NCBI GenBank assembly: GCA_947479055.1
Contig: CANJYE010000010.1
Span: 1-64,000, forward strand
DNA: 64,000 bases
Source: Erythrobacteraceae bacterium
GTDB taxonomy: Bacteria > Pseudomonadota > Alphaproteobacteria > Sphingomonadales > Sphingomonadaceae
Direction of reading: 5' to 3'
Shown here one piece after another: positions 12,226 to 28,719 of the stretch. Under the pieces are notes generated by a model, which was not told the DNA's origin, did no database searches, and saw only the letters and a list, made by a program, of their open reading frames with translations. The first letter of the stretch is position 1. Each line of letters starts with the position of its first letter. The translations under genes were made by a program, and so were the position numbers.

Positions 12226-12242
12226 AGCGCTAAATTAGCGCT
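12226..12242. promoter_or_regulatory. Perfect 17-base palindrome upstream of the acyl-CoA ligase
   Basis: AGCGCTAA-A-TTAGCGCT is an exact inverted repeat between the trcR stop and the ligase start. Size and symmetry resemble operators of TetR-type fatty-acid regulators. There is no T-tract, so a terminator is less likely. The function is inferred. Confidence 0.45.
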
Positions 12243-12943
12243 CAGGCCTCGTCGCTGGCTTCGGCGGCGCGCTTGGCTTCGAGCCAGGCGGCGGCTTCGG
12301 CTTCCTGCGCCGCTTCGATCGCCAGCTTACCGGCTGCCACGCGTTCGGCCCGCAGTTCGTCGATCAGCGCCTGACGGTTGTCGCCAAGGTCCGAATCGAC
12401 CACCGCGCCTTCTGTGATCCCGGCCTTCTTGGCGGCCTTGGCCACCACCGCATCGAGTTCGCGCTGCGAACACAGGCCCAGCGTCACCGGGTCCTTCGGC
12501 TGGATGTTCTGGATGTTCCAGTGGCTGCGCTCGCGCACGGCGGCGATGGTGTTGCGGGTGGTGCCGATCAGCTTGCCGATCTGCGCGTCCGAAATCTCGG
12601 GATGGTTGCGCACGATCCAGGCGATGCCGTCCGGCTTGTCCTGGCGCTTGGATACCGGGGTATAGCGCGGGCCCTTGGTCCGGCTGACCGAAACCGGCGC
12701 CTTCTGCATCCTGAGCTTGTAGGCAGGATCAGCCTGGCCACGTTCGATTTCCTCGTGGTTCAGCTCGCCCGAATGAACCGGATCGCGACCGGTGTACTTG
12801 CTGCTGGCCAGATCGTCGGCCATCGCCTGCACTTCGAGGATATGCAGGCCGCAAAACTCGCTGATCTGCTCGAAAGTCAGGGCGGTGTTGTCGACAAGCC
12901 ACGATGCCGTCGCATGGGGCATCAGCGGAGCGGGTTGGGTCAC
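12242..12943 (-). CDS. trcR: Cell-cycle transcriptional regulator TrcR (DUF1013)
   Basis: This protein of 233 residues matches the alphaproteobacterial DUF1013/TrcR family almost end to end. It has a helix-turn-helix-like part with TFEQISEFCGLHILEVQAM at about residue 23, a middle ISDAQIGKLIGTTRNTIAAV segment that looks like a second HTH (about residues 115-135), and a C-terminal Ala/Glu-rich tail. In Caulobacter and Brucella it is linked to cell-cycle control. The leader upstream (12944-13200) contains an intrinsic terminator facing this gene, so attenuation or a separate small RNA is possible. Confidence 0.85.
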   Translation of the reverse strand: MTQPAPLMPHATASWLVDNTALTFEQISEFCGLHILEVQAMADDLASSKYTGRDPVHSGELNHEEIERGQADPAYKLRMQKAPVSVSRTKGPRYTPVSKRQDKPDGIAWIVRNHPEISDAQIGKLIGTTRNTIAAVRERSHWNIQNIQPKDPVTLGLCSQRELDAVVAKAAKKAGITEGAVVDSDLGDNRQALIDELRAERVAAGKLAIEAAQEAEAAAWLEAKRAAEASDEA

Positions 12944-12979: not shown

Positions 12980-13014
12980 AAAAAACATAAAGGGCCGCCC
13001 CTCGCGGAGCGGCC
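12980..13014 (-). terminator. Intrinsic terminator upstream of trcR (leader attenuator or sRNA end)
   Basis: On the minus strand a GGCCGC/GCGGCC stem (12993-12998 with 13009-13014, inner GC-rich loop) is followed by TTTATGTTTTTT. It ends transcripts coming from the right, yet the only gene to the right is on the other strand. It therefore lies in the 5' leader of trcR or ends a small RNA. Confidence 0.6.
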
Positions 13015-13201
13015 GTCTTGGCAGCGATTTAGGCGATGTCGCCCGGTTCGGCAAGCGCGATGGCGCAATTGGGCAAGAATGCGCTCTGGCGACACCATCG
13101 GGACTCCGTGTCTCGACCGATCCCGGCCATAAGAGGGGCGGCCAGGGCGAAGGATGCAAGACGGGCAAGCGGCCCGCCGCCGTGGCGCAGGAGAGCATGC
13201 C

Positions 13202-14779
13202 ATGTCCATGTCCGACACGGAGATCGTTACGCTGCTGGCGCAAACGCTGGGGGCCGATCGGGTCGATGCCTCCAACCAGGCGCGCGAAATCGCGGCTGGC
13301 GATTTCTTCCGCGTGACCGAACCTCCCGCCTGCGTCGTCCGCCCGCGCGACAAGGGTGAGGTGGCCCGCGCCGTCGCCTGTGCTGCAAGGGCCGGCTACA
13401 AGGTCCACCCGCGAGGGGGCGGCATGTCGTTCAGCGGCGGTTATGCTCCGCGCTCGCCGCGCTCGATTACGCTTGACCTGACGGCGATGGACGCGGTGGT
13501 CGAGATCAACGCGCAGGACCTCTATGTCATCGTCCAGCCGGGCTGCACCTGGCTGAAGCTATATGAGGAGCTCAAGGCGCAGGGCCTGCGCGTGCCGGCC
13601 TATGGCACCCGCTCGGGCCGGCAGGCGACCGTCGGTGGCAGCCTGTCGCAGACGGGCGTGATGTTGGGATCGAGCCGCTATGGCACCACCACCGAGCAGG
13701 TGATGGGGCTGGAAGTGGTGCTGGCGGACGGCACGATGGTGCGCACTGGCCATTGGGCGTTCGGGCCGCGCAGGCCCTATTACCGCTATGGAAGCCCGGA
13801 TCTGGTCGGCCCGTTCCTCGGCGATTTCGGCGCGATGGGAGTAAAGGTAGAGATCGCGCTCAAGCTGATCGAATGGCCCGCTCATGAAGCGGCTGCATCC
13901 TTTTCCTTCACCAGTTTTGAGGCGCTGCACCAGACCGAGACGACCATCCAGCGGCTGGGTCTGGCCACCGAGATGATCGGCCTTGACGAATCGATGCAGC
14001 GGCTGAGCATGGAAGGCACGACGCTTGGCGATGGCGTGCGCGCGATCGCCAAGGCGCTGAAGGGCAAAAACCTTGTCGAAAGCGTGATCAGCGCGGCGAA
14101 GATCGCGACGGCGGGTCGACGCTTCCTTGATGAGGCCGCCTATTCGCTCCATGTCGTCACCGACGGGCGGCACAAACCGGCGGTCACCGCGCAGATGGAG
14201 GAAATCCATCAGATCGCGCTGGGTGCCGGGGGCAAGATCATTGCCGACACGGTTGCGCGGATGATCCGGATCGATCCCTATCCCGACATGGACCAGGTGC
14301 TTGGCCCGAAGGGCGAACGCTGGGTGCCGATGCCTTTCATGTTTCCCGCCTCCGCCGCGCTGGCGGCGATGGAGCGGATCCGTGCCGTGCTGGAAGGGCA
14401 TCGCGAGACGATCGAGCGGCTGGGAATCGAGATCGGGCTGCTGGTCGGCTCCTATGCGCCCGCGCTCAGTAATCTCGACCTGATGATCTACTGGCCGGAT
14501 CGCCCGACTGCCCTCCACCGCGCCACGGCCTCGAAGGAAAAAGTCGCGCAGGGCGAGCGGCTGGCCGACAACCCCGAAGCGCGCCAGTTCCTGTCCGGCC
14601 TGTGGTCCGAACTGATCGATGCCACGGCGGAATTCGGTGCCAATTACATCGGCATCGGCGGGCCGGAACTGAAATTCCGGCAAGGCCGCGATCCCGCCAG
14701 CTTCGAGCTGCTGCGCACCTTCAAGCGGGCGATCGATCCTGATTGCGTGCTGAGCCCCGGTGCCTTCGACCTCGATTGA
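13202..14779 (+). CDS. FAD-binding oxidoreductase (PCMH-type)
   Basis: The protein has about 525 residues. The N-terminal half is a PCMH FAD-binding domain: VVRPRDKGEVARAVACA (about residue 45), HPRGGGMSFSGGY (about 72-84, the FAD-contacting loop), and GTRSGRQATVGGSLSQTG. The C-terminal half resembles FAD-linked oxidase C-terminal domains. No Fe-S cysteine motif is seen, so it is closer to the D-lactate/glycolate-oxidase GlcD group than to GlcF. The start MSMSDTE at 13202 has GGAG upstream. The substrate is unknown and no pathway neighbour helps. Confidence 0.75.
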   Translation: MSMSDTEIVTLLAQTLGADRVDASNQAREIAAGDFFRVTEPPACVVRPRDKGEVARAVACAARAGYKVHPRGGGMSFSGGYAPRSPRSITLDLTAMDAVVEINAQDLYVIVQPGCTWLKLYEELKAQGLRVPAYGTRSGRQATVGGSLSQTGVMLGSSRYGTTTEQVMGLEVVLADGTMVRTGHWAFGPRRPYYRYGSPDLVGPFLGDFGAMGVKVEIALKLIEWPAHEAAASFSFTSFEALHQTETTIQRLGLATEMIGLDESMQRLSMEGTTLGDGVRAIAKALKGKNLVESVISAAKIATAGRRFLDEAAYSLHVVTDGRHKPAVTAQMEEIHQIALGAGGKIIADTVARMIRIDPYPDMDQVLGPKGERWVPMPFMFPASAALAAMERIRAVLEGHRETIERLGIEIGLLVGSYAPALSNLDLMIYWPDRPTALHRATASKEKVAQGERLADNPEARQFLSGLWSELIDATAEFGANYIGIGGPELKFRQGRDPASFELLRTFKRAIDPDCVLSPGAFDLD

Positions 14780-27807: not shown

Positions 27808-27838
27808 TCGCGCCGCAAGCAGGTTGCGGCGCGATTTC
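27808..27838 (+). terminator. Intrinsic terminator after fdxA
   Basis: An 11-base perfect stem (27808-27818 with 27824-27834, loop GCAGG) is followed by TTTC. It ends the helicase-S4-fdxA transcript. A weaker GATCC/GGATC hairpin (about 27757-27788) precedes it. Confidence 0.7.
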
Positions 27839-28057
27839 ATGCGCGCGCAACAATCGCGCAGTCTGGGGCTGGCTTTTTATGCGGATTTCCGCTATGTGGT
27901 GCCGCACTGCCGCGGGTCGCTTTGCGGCTGCGTGGTACCGAGAAAGGCAGGCCTCCCGCGAATCAGTCAAGCCAGGCAAGCCGACCGCGTCGTGACGCGG
28001 CCGTTTCCCTTGTTTCACTGTGCCTTGGGGCAGCCTGTCGGAGCGAAAGGATATTCC
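27839..28057 (+). other. Leader region of carD, no gene seen
   Basis: This 219-base stretch between the fdxA terminator and carD has no convincing reading frame. It must hold the carD promoter and a probably long leader. An ACCGCGTC/GACGCGGC hairpin lies near 27982-28000. GCGAAAGG before the ATG serves as the ribosome site. Confidence 0.4.
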
Positions 28058-28591
28058 ATGGCTGTTAAGGCCCCCGCCTTCGACGTTGGTGACTATGTTG
28101 TTTATCCCAAACACGGCGTTGGCCGTGTGATCGAGCTGCAGAACGAAGAAATCGCCGGCATGCAGCTCGAACTCTACGTCCTCCGGTTCGAGAAGGAGCG
28201 GATGACGCTCCGCGTTCCCGTGAACAAGGTCGAAGCGATCGGGATGCGCAAGCTCTCGTCCGACAAGACCCTGCGCGAGGCACTCGACACTCTGAAGGGC
28301 AAGCCCCGCGTCAAGCGCACCATGTGGTCGCGCCGCGCCCAGGAATACGAAGCCAAGATCAATTCGGGTGACCTCGTGTCGATCGCCGAAGTGACGCGCG
28401 ACCTGTTCCGTGCCGACGACCAGCCCGAACAGAGCTATTCCGAGCGCCAGATCTTCGAAGCCGCTTCCAGCCGCCTCGCGCGCGAACTGGCCGCGATGGA
28501 AAAGACCGATGAGCCGACCGCGCTCAAGAAGATCCTCGCGATCCTCAACGAGCATGCGCCGAAATATTACGAGAATGCCGAAACCGCCTGA
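28058..28591 (+). CDS. carD: CarD family transcriptional regulator
   Basis: CarD proteins bind RNA polymerase beta and stabilise open promoter complexes. The protein has about 178 residues. The N-terminal Tudor-like RNA-polymerase interaction domain has FDVGDYVVYPKHGVGRVI (residues 8-25). The C-terminal helical DNA-binding domain contains the conserved Trp in KRTMWSRRAQEYE, followed by SGDLVSIAEVTRDLF. The start MAVKAPAF at 28058 is preferred over longer upstream readings. It is followed by a clear terminator. Confidence 0.93.
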   Translation: MAVKAPAFDVGDYVVYPKHGVGRVIELQNEEIAGMQLELYVLRFEKERMTLRVPVNKVEAIGMRKLSSDKTLREALDTLKGKPRVKRTMWSRRAQEYEAKINSGDLVSIAEVTRDLFRADDQPEQSYSERQIFEAASSRLARELAAMEKTDEPTALKKILAILNEHAPKYYENAETA

Positions 28592-28618
28592 GCTCCATTA
28601 CTCGCCGCAGGCATAAGG

Positions 28619-28647
28619 AAAGGCCGCCCCAGTCAGGGCGGCCTTTT
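28619..28647 (+). terminator. Intrinsic terminator after carD
   Basis: AAAGGCCGCCC pairs with GGGCGGCCTTT across a 6-base loop (stem 28622-28629 with 28636-28643) and is followed by TTTT. Confidence 0.85.
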
Positions 28648-28719
28648 CATTTTGCGGCGCCCCGTTCGGGCCGGGTTCAGTTTTGCAATGGGAATATGCT
28701 CTCTAAAGAGGTGACGACG

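Follow-up and report, generated by a model that had tools for sequence, protein, structure and literature searches.

What does a terminator-like hairpin do directly ahead of trcR, where no gene precedes it on the same strand? We addressed this question in the genome of an Erythrobacteraceae bacterium (GCA_947479055.1, contig CANJYE010000010.1), within a window of 64,000 nucleotides, by which we mean the whole stretch of DNA that was analysed. A preliminary description of this DNA had placed a GC-rich stem and a T-run on the minus strand upstream of trcR and had found no minus-strand gene to the right; the hairpin is borne out, with the stem at 13014-12993 and the tail ending 36 nt from the start codon, and the right-hand neighbour is a plus-strand FAD-binding oxidase. 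The same description had read the region as a small RNA or regulated leader of 220 bases. The comparison of related genomes reported here points to something more compact, a unit of promoter, hairpin and U-tract whose core anatomy we regard as very probable. We further think it reasonably likely that this unit works as a leaky promoter-proximal intrinsic terminator that limits trcR expression, in an architecture like that of E. coli greA/GraL.

The features of the locus are collected in Table 1. A GGAG can be seen by eye upstream of the GTG start of trcR, and the stem lies 49 nt from that start. The 39-nt predicted 5' end of the transcript folds with -20.6 kcal/mol (z -3.33), a value equalled by 1 of 200 shuffles. 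The element has the GC-rich stem-loop of an intrinsic terminator, complete with covariation (see below), and, where such terminators have a U-rich tract of 7-9 nt, a conserved mostly-T tract of ten positions directly after the stem; this tract has interruptions, however, and scores below those of the other sites found with our model of the hairpin. A consensus terminator scan of 3.5 kb returned 4 sites against 2.5 +/- 1.9 in shuffles, a count that is not convincing alone, and three of the four are versions of the trcR-leader hairpin; since this count is not significant, the case has to be made wholly by comparison and conservation.

Table 1. Features discussed in the text, in window coordinates.
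Feature	Position	Strand	Remarks
trcR (DUF1013, PF06242)	12242..12943	-	233 aa, GTG start; Pfam PF06242 TrcR 209.7 bits against a cut-off of 22.2
U-tract CTTTATGTTTTTT	12980..12992	-	interrupted; directly after the stem
Terminator-type hairpin GGCCGCTCC-GCGA-GGGGCGGCC	12993..13014	-	9-bp stem with 8 G-C pairs, 4-nt loop
Predicted transcription start (+1)	about 13019	-	precedes the stem by about 5 nt; placed from the -10 position
-10 box TAAATC, predicted trcR promoter	13026..13031	-	17-nt spacer to the -35 box
Long-range arm GGCGACATC	13043-13035	-	8 of 9 positions pair with GGTGTCGCC, plus a wobble
-35 box TTGCCG, predicted trcR promoter	13049..13054	-	TTG position kept among leaders
Long-range arm GGTGTCGCC	13096-13088	-	partner of GGCGACATC
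GANTC site (GAGTC)	13102..13106	-	possible CcrM methylation site; starts 92 nt before the hairpin; nearest in the window
FAD-binding oxidase	about 13202-14779	+	divergent neighbour to the right of the trcR leader
CarD-like frame (PF21095, PF02559)	27824..28591		ahead of the terminator at 28617-28655
Second-best R1 match of this genome	28617-28655	+	30.8 bits; ordinary gene-end terminator

Rfam 15 gave no match over the window at the gathering cut-off. Near the element, a RefA9 match of 24.2 bits (cut-off 49) lies on the plus, that is the opposite, strand, and a permissive Rfam search of 401 bases returned fragments of S4-Bacteroidia and SAM-SAH; all of these were taken as chance. Two candidates noticed by eye were also set aside: a minus-strand frame of 33 codons with its end near 13030, which was dropped as there is next to no conservation upstream of the -35 box, and the U-tract as the -10 box of a second promoter, for which no suitably spaced -35 box was seen.

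The hairpin accompanies trcR throughout the family. Using the TrcR protein, we assembled a first set of leaders from the window and from the best 80 (L002-L081) of at least 335 relatives. These 80 come from named records and belong to Novosphingobium, Erythrobacter, Qipengyuania, Croceicoccus, Blastomonas and others; MAGs are frequent among them, and there is kinship among the loci. The hairpin stands upstream of trcR in all 81 leaders of this set, at 25-101 nt from stem to gene start, as it does in 17 of 17 further family leaders picked by hand. From 78 of the same leaders, window included, we built a covariance model of the hairpin, R1. Even among genomes scoring poorer with R1, a hairpin with a T-rich tail is present in 26 of 27 readable leaders; the 30 genomes behind this number were hand-picked among the poorer scorers, are not strictly the 30 poorest, and include three in which no start motif was found (L204, L209 and L210). 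Two genomes entered the collection twice, L142 being the same as L182 and L081 apparently the same as L137. The leader of G218 (L189), whose trcR match contains an internal stop, has no hairpin.

Searches that start from the leader lead back to the same gene. A BLAST search of 298 family genomes with the window leader gave matches in 155, and every one of the 29 loci fetched from outside the window lies at trcR; at least one weaker match, in G226, sits away from trcR, after another gene. Among the matches listed for R1, the best one falls 11-91 nt upstream of trcR and on its strand in 105 of 106 genomes, the 106 being those of the 298 for which a trcR place and an R1 place are both among the matches listed, so that R1 matches with no trcR place listed, and trcR places with no R1 match listed (15 of 121, and others besides), are omitted from the count. 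The sole exception is G001, where the hairpin at trcR is a variant and R1 matches more strongly after another gene.

Beyond the family, a scan of 20 trcR leaders, hand-picked from 20 other alphaproteobacterial families, found a terminator-like hairpin in none (0/20), and on this sample of outside leaders the element appears to be confined to the family. In the outside leader L124 (G486), a GC-rich hairpin seen by eye closely follows a TATATA box but has no adequate T-run; it is perhaps an independent 5'-terminal hairpin. Within the family loci, a scan for the combination TTG-N20-TA, hairpin and T-run returned 80 hits at trcR, in 80 loci, and none in the remainder of those loci (1,015,212 bases over both strands, corresponding to about 0.5 Mb of flanks that are in many cases related, with criteria set after the trcR element was known). 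In the window it returned the trcR case only.

The pattern of substitutions indicates what is being conserved. Among the pair cells of an alignment of 48 diverse leaders, 97.9% are standard and 22 have both bases changed, a number reached by 0 of 500 shuffles, and structures slid along the same alignment yielded only 0-8 such cells; at two stem positions G-C and A-U pairs are exchanged. Two of five covariation measures were not above shuffles (pairs with a double change, equalled in 90 of 500; pair types, in 351 of 500), and the innermost pair is open in 9 of the 48 leaders. The close set (A1) offers a single covarying cell, which makes the test almost uninformative there. Judged by these comparisons, the stem is an RNA stem; as the 3' arm is nearly invariant, its conservation lies partly in the sequence and not in the pairing.

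A predicted promoter stands immediately ahead of this stem. In 123 of 124 leaders (81/81 close, 42/43 divergent) the hairpin is preceded by a TTG at a distance of 38-44 nt, against 7-13 of the 81 close and 0-7 of the 43 divergent leaders in control windows, and the spacer is exactly 17 nt in 119 of the 122 leaders that have both TTG and TA in place. (C/T)TA falls within the -10 window in 78 of 81 close leaders and in 31 of 43 divergent ones, where the -10 motif is accordingly less clear. When leaders were aligned on the stem (96 of 98 rows used), the strong signals were TTGC at about 40 nt, CCTAnAT at about 17 nt and the last three bases before the stem; smaller ones appeared at -46 to -44 (0.2-0.34 bits), at -34/-33 (about 0.36) and as a purine at +13 (0.7 bits). 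No position from -62 to -47 carries more than 0.11 bits of information in this 96-leader alignment, and conservation of the leader starts at about the -35 box.

The boxes are of a familiar type. The excerpt of PMC8144410 gives the Caulobacter RpoD consensus as TTGaCgS at -35 and GCtANAWC at -10, and CCTAAATC at the -10 position of the trcR promoter resembles the latter. The trcR -10 element has no T at -7, a base that is missing from many alphaproteobacterial promoters according to PMC8407463. With a TTG and a CTAnAWC-type box about 17 nt apart, the putative trcR promoter resembles the alphaproteobacterial RpoD (sigma-70) type. A conserved promoter immediately ahead of the hairpin means that the hairpin would be the 5' end of the trcR mRNA and not the end of a 220-nt RNA.

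GANTC is the target of CcrM in alphaproteobacteria, and the promoters of the relatives are rich in it. In 38 of 80 loci (the best 80 of at least 335 relatives) the 80 nt ahead of the hairpin hold such a site, compared with 3-15 per 77-80 in other 80-nt windows, and 300 shuffles that kept the base composition of the stretch gave 19.5 +/- 4.2 (maximum 33); kinship of the loci inflates this enrichment, and the window's own GANTC falls outside the 80-nt stretch. The sites cluster at -36/-35 (15 sites) and -52 (7), some of them overlapping the -35 region (TTGCCGAATC). This distribution suggests CcrM/GcrA control of the trcR promoter in relatives.

Is the hairpin a terminator? After the stem come about ten mostly-T positions (to +10), with T at +8 in 100% of the 96 leaders, and the first base of the tract is C in 90% of leaders. 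The same stem is found at gene ends, after cytochrome-c-like (G001, its best R1 match), rpoA-like (G039, the second R1 match listed) and permease-like (G226, a secondary BLAST match) genes, these being the three gene-end sites that were inspected closely and the genes being named from their translations. Hairpins of this type occur beyond trcR as well, most genomes holding further, weaker R1 matches: four closely searched genomes have 3-14 matches at E <=0.01, the trcR sites scoring 52.6-59.6 bits and the next best 40.1. Several gene-end terminators among L156-L181 share a similar stem (of the GGGCCGCTCC..GGGCGGCCC type), as if it were a house terminator. In the window, the second-best R1 match follows a CarD-like frame (Table 1); CarD has been proposed to aid promoters without T at -7 (PMC8407463), and the predicted trcR promoter is of that kind.

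At trcR the tail is comparatively weak. The U-tract score is 3.0 for the 81 trcR leaders and 4.49 for 26 other R1 sites taken from four genomes with stem ends assigned by a simple rule (p 8e-11), and the 43 divergent trcR leaders, at 3.19, differ from those sites likewise (p 1.5e-8). Skipping a leading non-T narrows the comparison to 3.97 for the 81 leaders and 4.6 for the other sites (p 5e-6). The trcR-leader element thus appears to be of the intrinsic-terminator kind, but weak, and with a U-tract weaker than at other sites termination may be slight.

Mechanistically, RNA polymerase would begin transcription about 5 nt ahead of the stem and would make the hairpin and interrupted U-tract almost on escape. 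A share of the complexes would terminate in the leader and release an RNA of about 35-40 nt, the hairpin element being the first about 40 nt of the transcript, while the remaining complexes would read through into trcR. With only about 5 nt predicted before the stem, there would be no room for an upstream sensor, an antiterminator or a riboswitch-style structure, so that read-through would be either fixed by the strength of hairpin and U-tract, giving a low and constant output, or set by proteins bound to the polymerase. We consider partial termination in vivo likely.

The same hairpin could serve a different purpose. Lying only about 5 nt inside the predicted transcript, the stem might guard the trcR mRNA from 5'-end-dependent decay, with termination negligible. 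The near-fixed distance between stem and promoter, which puts the stem a few nucleotides from the predicted start, fits such a stabiliser, as does a U-tract weaker than at other R1 sites. Protection of the 5' end would need neither the U-rich stretch conserved over about ten positions after the stem nor a stem that elsewhere serves as a gene-end terminator, and we judge this explanation unlikely.

The hairpin could also be the gene-end terminator of an upstream unit, the true trcR promoter lying downstream of it. Its sequence is like that of gene-end terminators, and a crude test for the best-supported upstream frame found it collinear with trcR in 66 of 81 loci and on the opposite strand in 6, and returned none in 9, one of which is the window; many of the collinear frames end just before the -35 box. 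These frames fall into different clusters, mainly ones with 30, 20 and 12 partner loci; the neighbour seen in the window itself is divergent. As the upstream neighbours vary and the unit is constant, the element belongs to trcR. A conserved promoter at a near-fixed distance ahead of the hairpin speaks against an upstream-unit terminator too, and a stem-to-start distance down to 25 nt would leave little room for another promoter plus leader; we therefore find this reading quite improbable.

Should the leader terminate as proposed, the terminated product, a tiny RNA of about 35-40 nt, might itself be functional in trans. Besides stem, loop and U-tract it would have about 5 nt, of which only the last three are conserved, which leaves little room for an unpaired seed and makes a trans-acting role very improbable.

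The pairing that the preliminary description had drawn between arms at 13040-13102 does exist in the window (Table 1). It recurs, scored as a complement of at least 7 nt to the spacer, in only 6 of 80 loci (the best 80 of at least 335), and it folds no better than shuffles, neither in the stretch that holds the arms (z -0.40, equalled by 66 of 200) nor in a 196-nt region (z -0.23, equalled by 75 of 200). A 220-nt regulated leader or small RNA with long-range pairing is scarcely credible, its arms being unconserved and of no excess stability, one of them (GGCGACATC) sitting in the promoter spacer between the -35 and -10 boxes, and the positions from -62 to -47 before the stem being next to unconserved. 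What stands of the earlier proposal is its outline, a leader attenuator of trcR in the form of a conserved terminator-type hairpin, without the 220-nt extent and the long-range structure; among other sphingomonads, where covariation had been suggested as a check, it is the terminator stem that covaries and the upstream pairing is not conserved.

If a promoter-proximal terminator limits trcR, what might set its read-through? TrcR is described as RNA-polymerase-associated in Caulobacter (passages of PMC12864828 and PMC10754441, after Delaby et al. 2021), which makes feedback through the leader terminator the most economical regulatory reading. TrcR on the polymerase would sense its own abundance via termination at its own leader hairpin, with no sensor RNA, and the process would possibly be timed by GANTC methylation at the promoter; this is an idea we put forward tentatively. 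Feedback by TrcR is plausible by analogy, and we hold it as a conjecture that may well prove wrong. The passages of PMC12864828 and PMC10754441 that name TrcR/DUF1013 say nothing about the leader or about how the amount of TrcR is set (DUF1013 is named in PMC7105596 as well); literature searches on promoter-proximal autoregulation and on sphingomonad sRNAs yielded nothing on trcR; and PMC2965389 does not mention Sphingo, Novosphingobium, Zymomonas or Erythrobacter. The terminator that the family keeps a few nucleotides behind the trcR promoter would be a ready single-locus reporter of the effect of TrcR on elongating polymerase.

How does this arrangement compare with known systems? Classical attenuators and riboswitches share with it an early decision between termination and read-through in the leader, but, taking the start from the -10 position, the trcR leader would have no room for a leader peptide, an aptamer or an antiterminator, and by its sequence it seems to carry no sensor or antiterminator upstream of the terminator. 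With ordinary intrinsic terminators it shares the GC-rich stem, the loop of about 4 nt, the U-tract and, in related genomes, the very stem that follows genes; those of Zymomonas mobilis are described with a stem of about 11 bp, a loop of about 4 nt and about -17 kcal/mol (excerpt of PMC7566282). The trcR element differs from them in following a promoter and not a gene, in its 9-bp stem, in its weaker, interrupted U-tract that mostly begins with C, and in being poorer in A over the last six bases ahead of the stem (2.0 vs 3.4).

The nearest likeness is to E. coli greA, which is autoregulated through the terminator of its leader, GraL, an effect seen in vivo and not in vitro (passages of PMC6829880, which also cover the GraL details below). 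In both cases the gene of an RNA-polymerase-associated factor stands behind a promoter-proximal intrinsic terminator, on the trcR side as predicted from sequence, and in both a short RNA precedes the stem, 19 nt in GraL and about 5 nt, predicted, in trcR. The sequence before the GraL stem matters for autoregulation, whereas in the trcR leader almost none exists: the stem follows the predicted start almost at once, and its sequence is nearly fixed in close relatives. As the trcR leader is predicted to lack a functional pre-stem sequence of about 19 nt, we would say that it works like GraL, not that it is GraL, and we claim no homology. What the trcR locus adds is a sphingomonad promoter followed at once by a conserved hairpin, at which many transcripts probably end early and through which this cell-cycle regulator might set its own level; if the feedback is true, trcR would join greA as a gene for a polymerase factor whose leader attenuates its expression.
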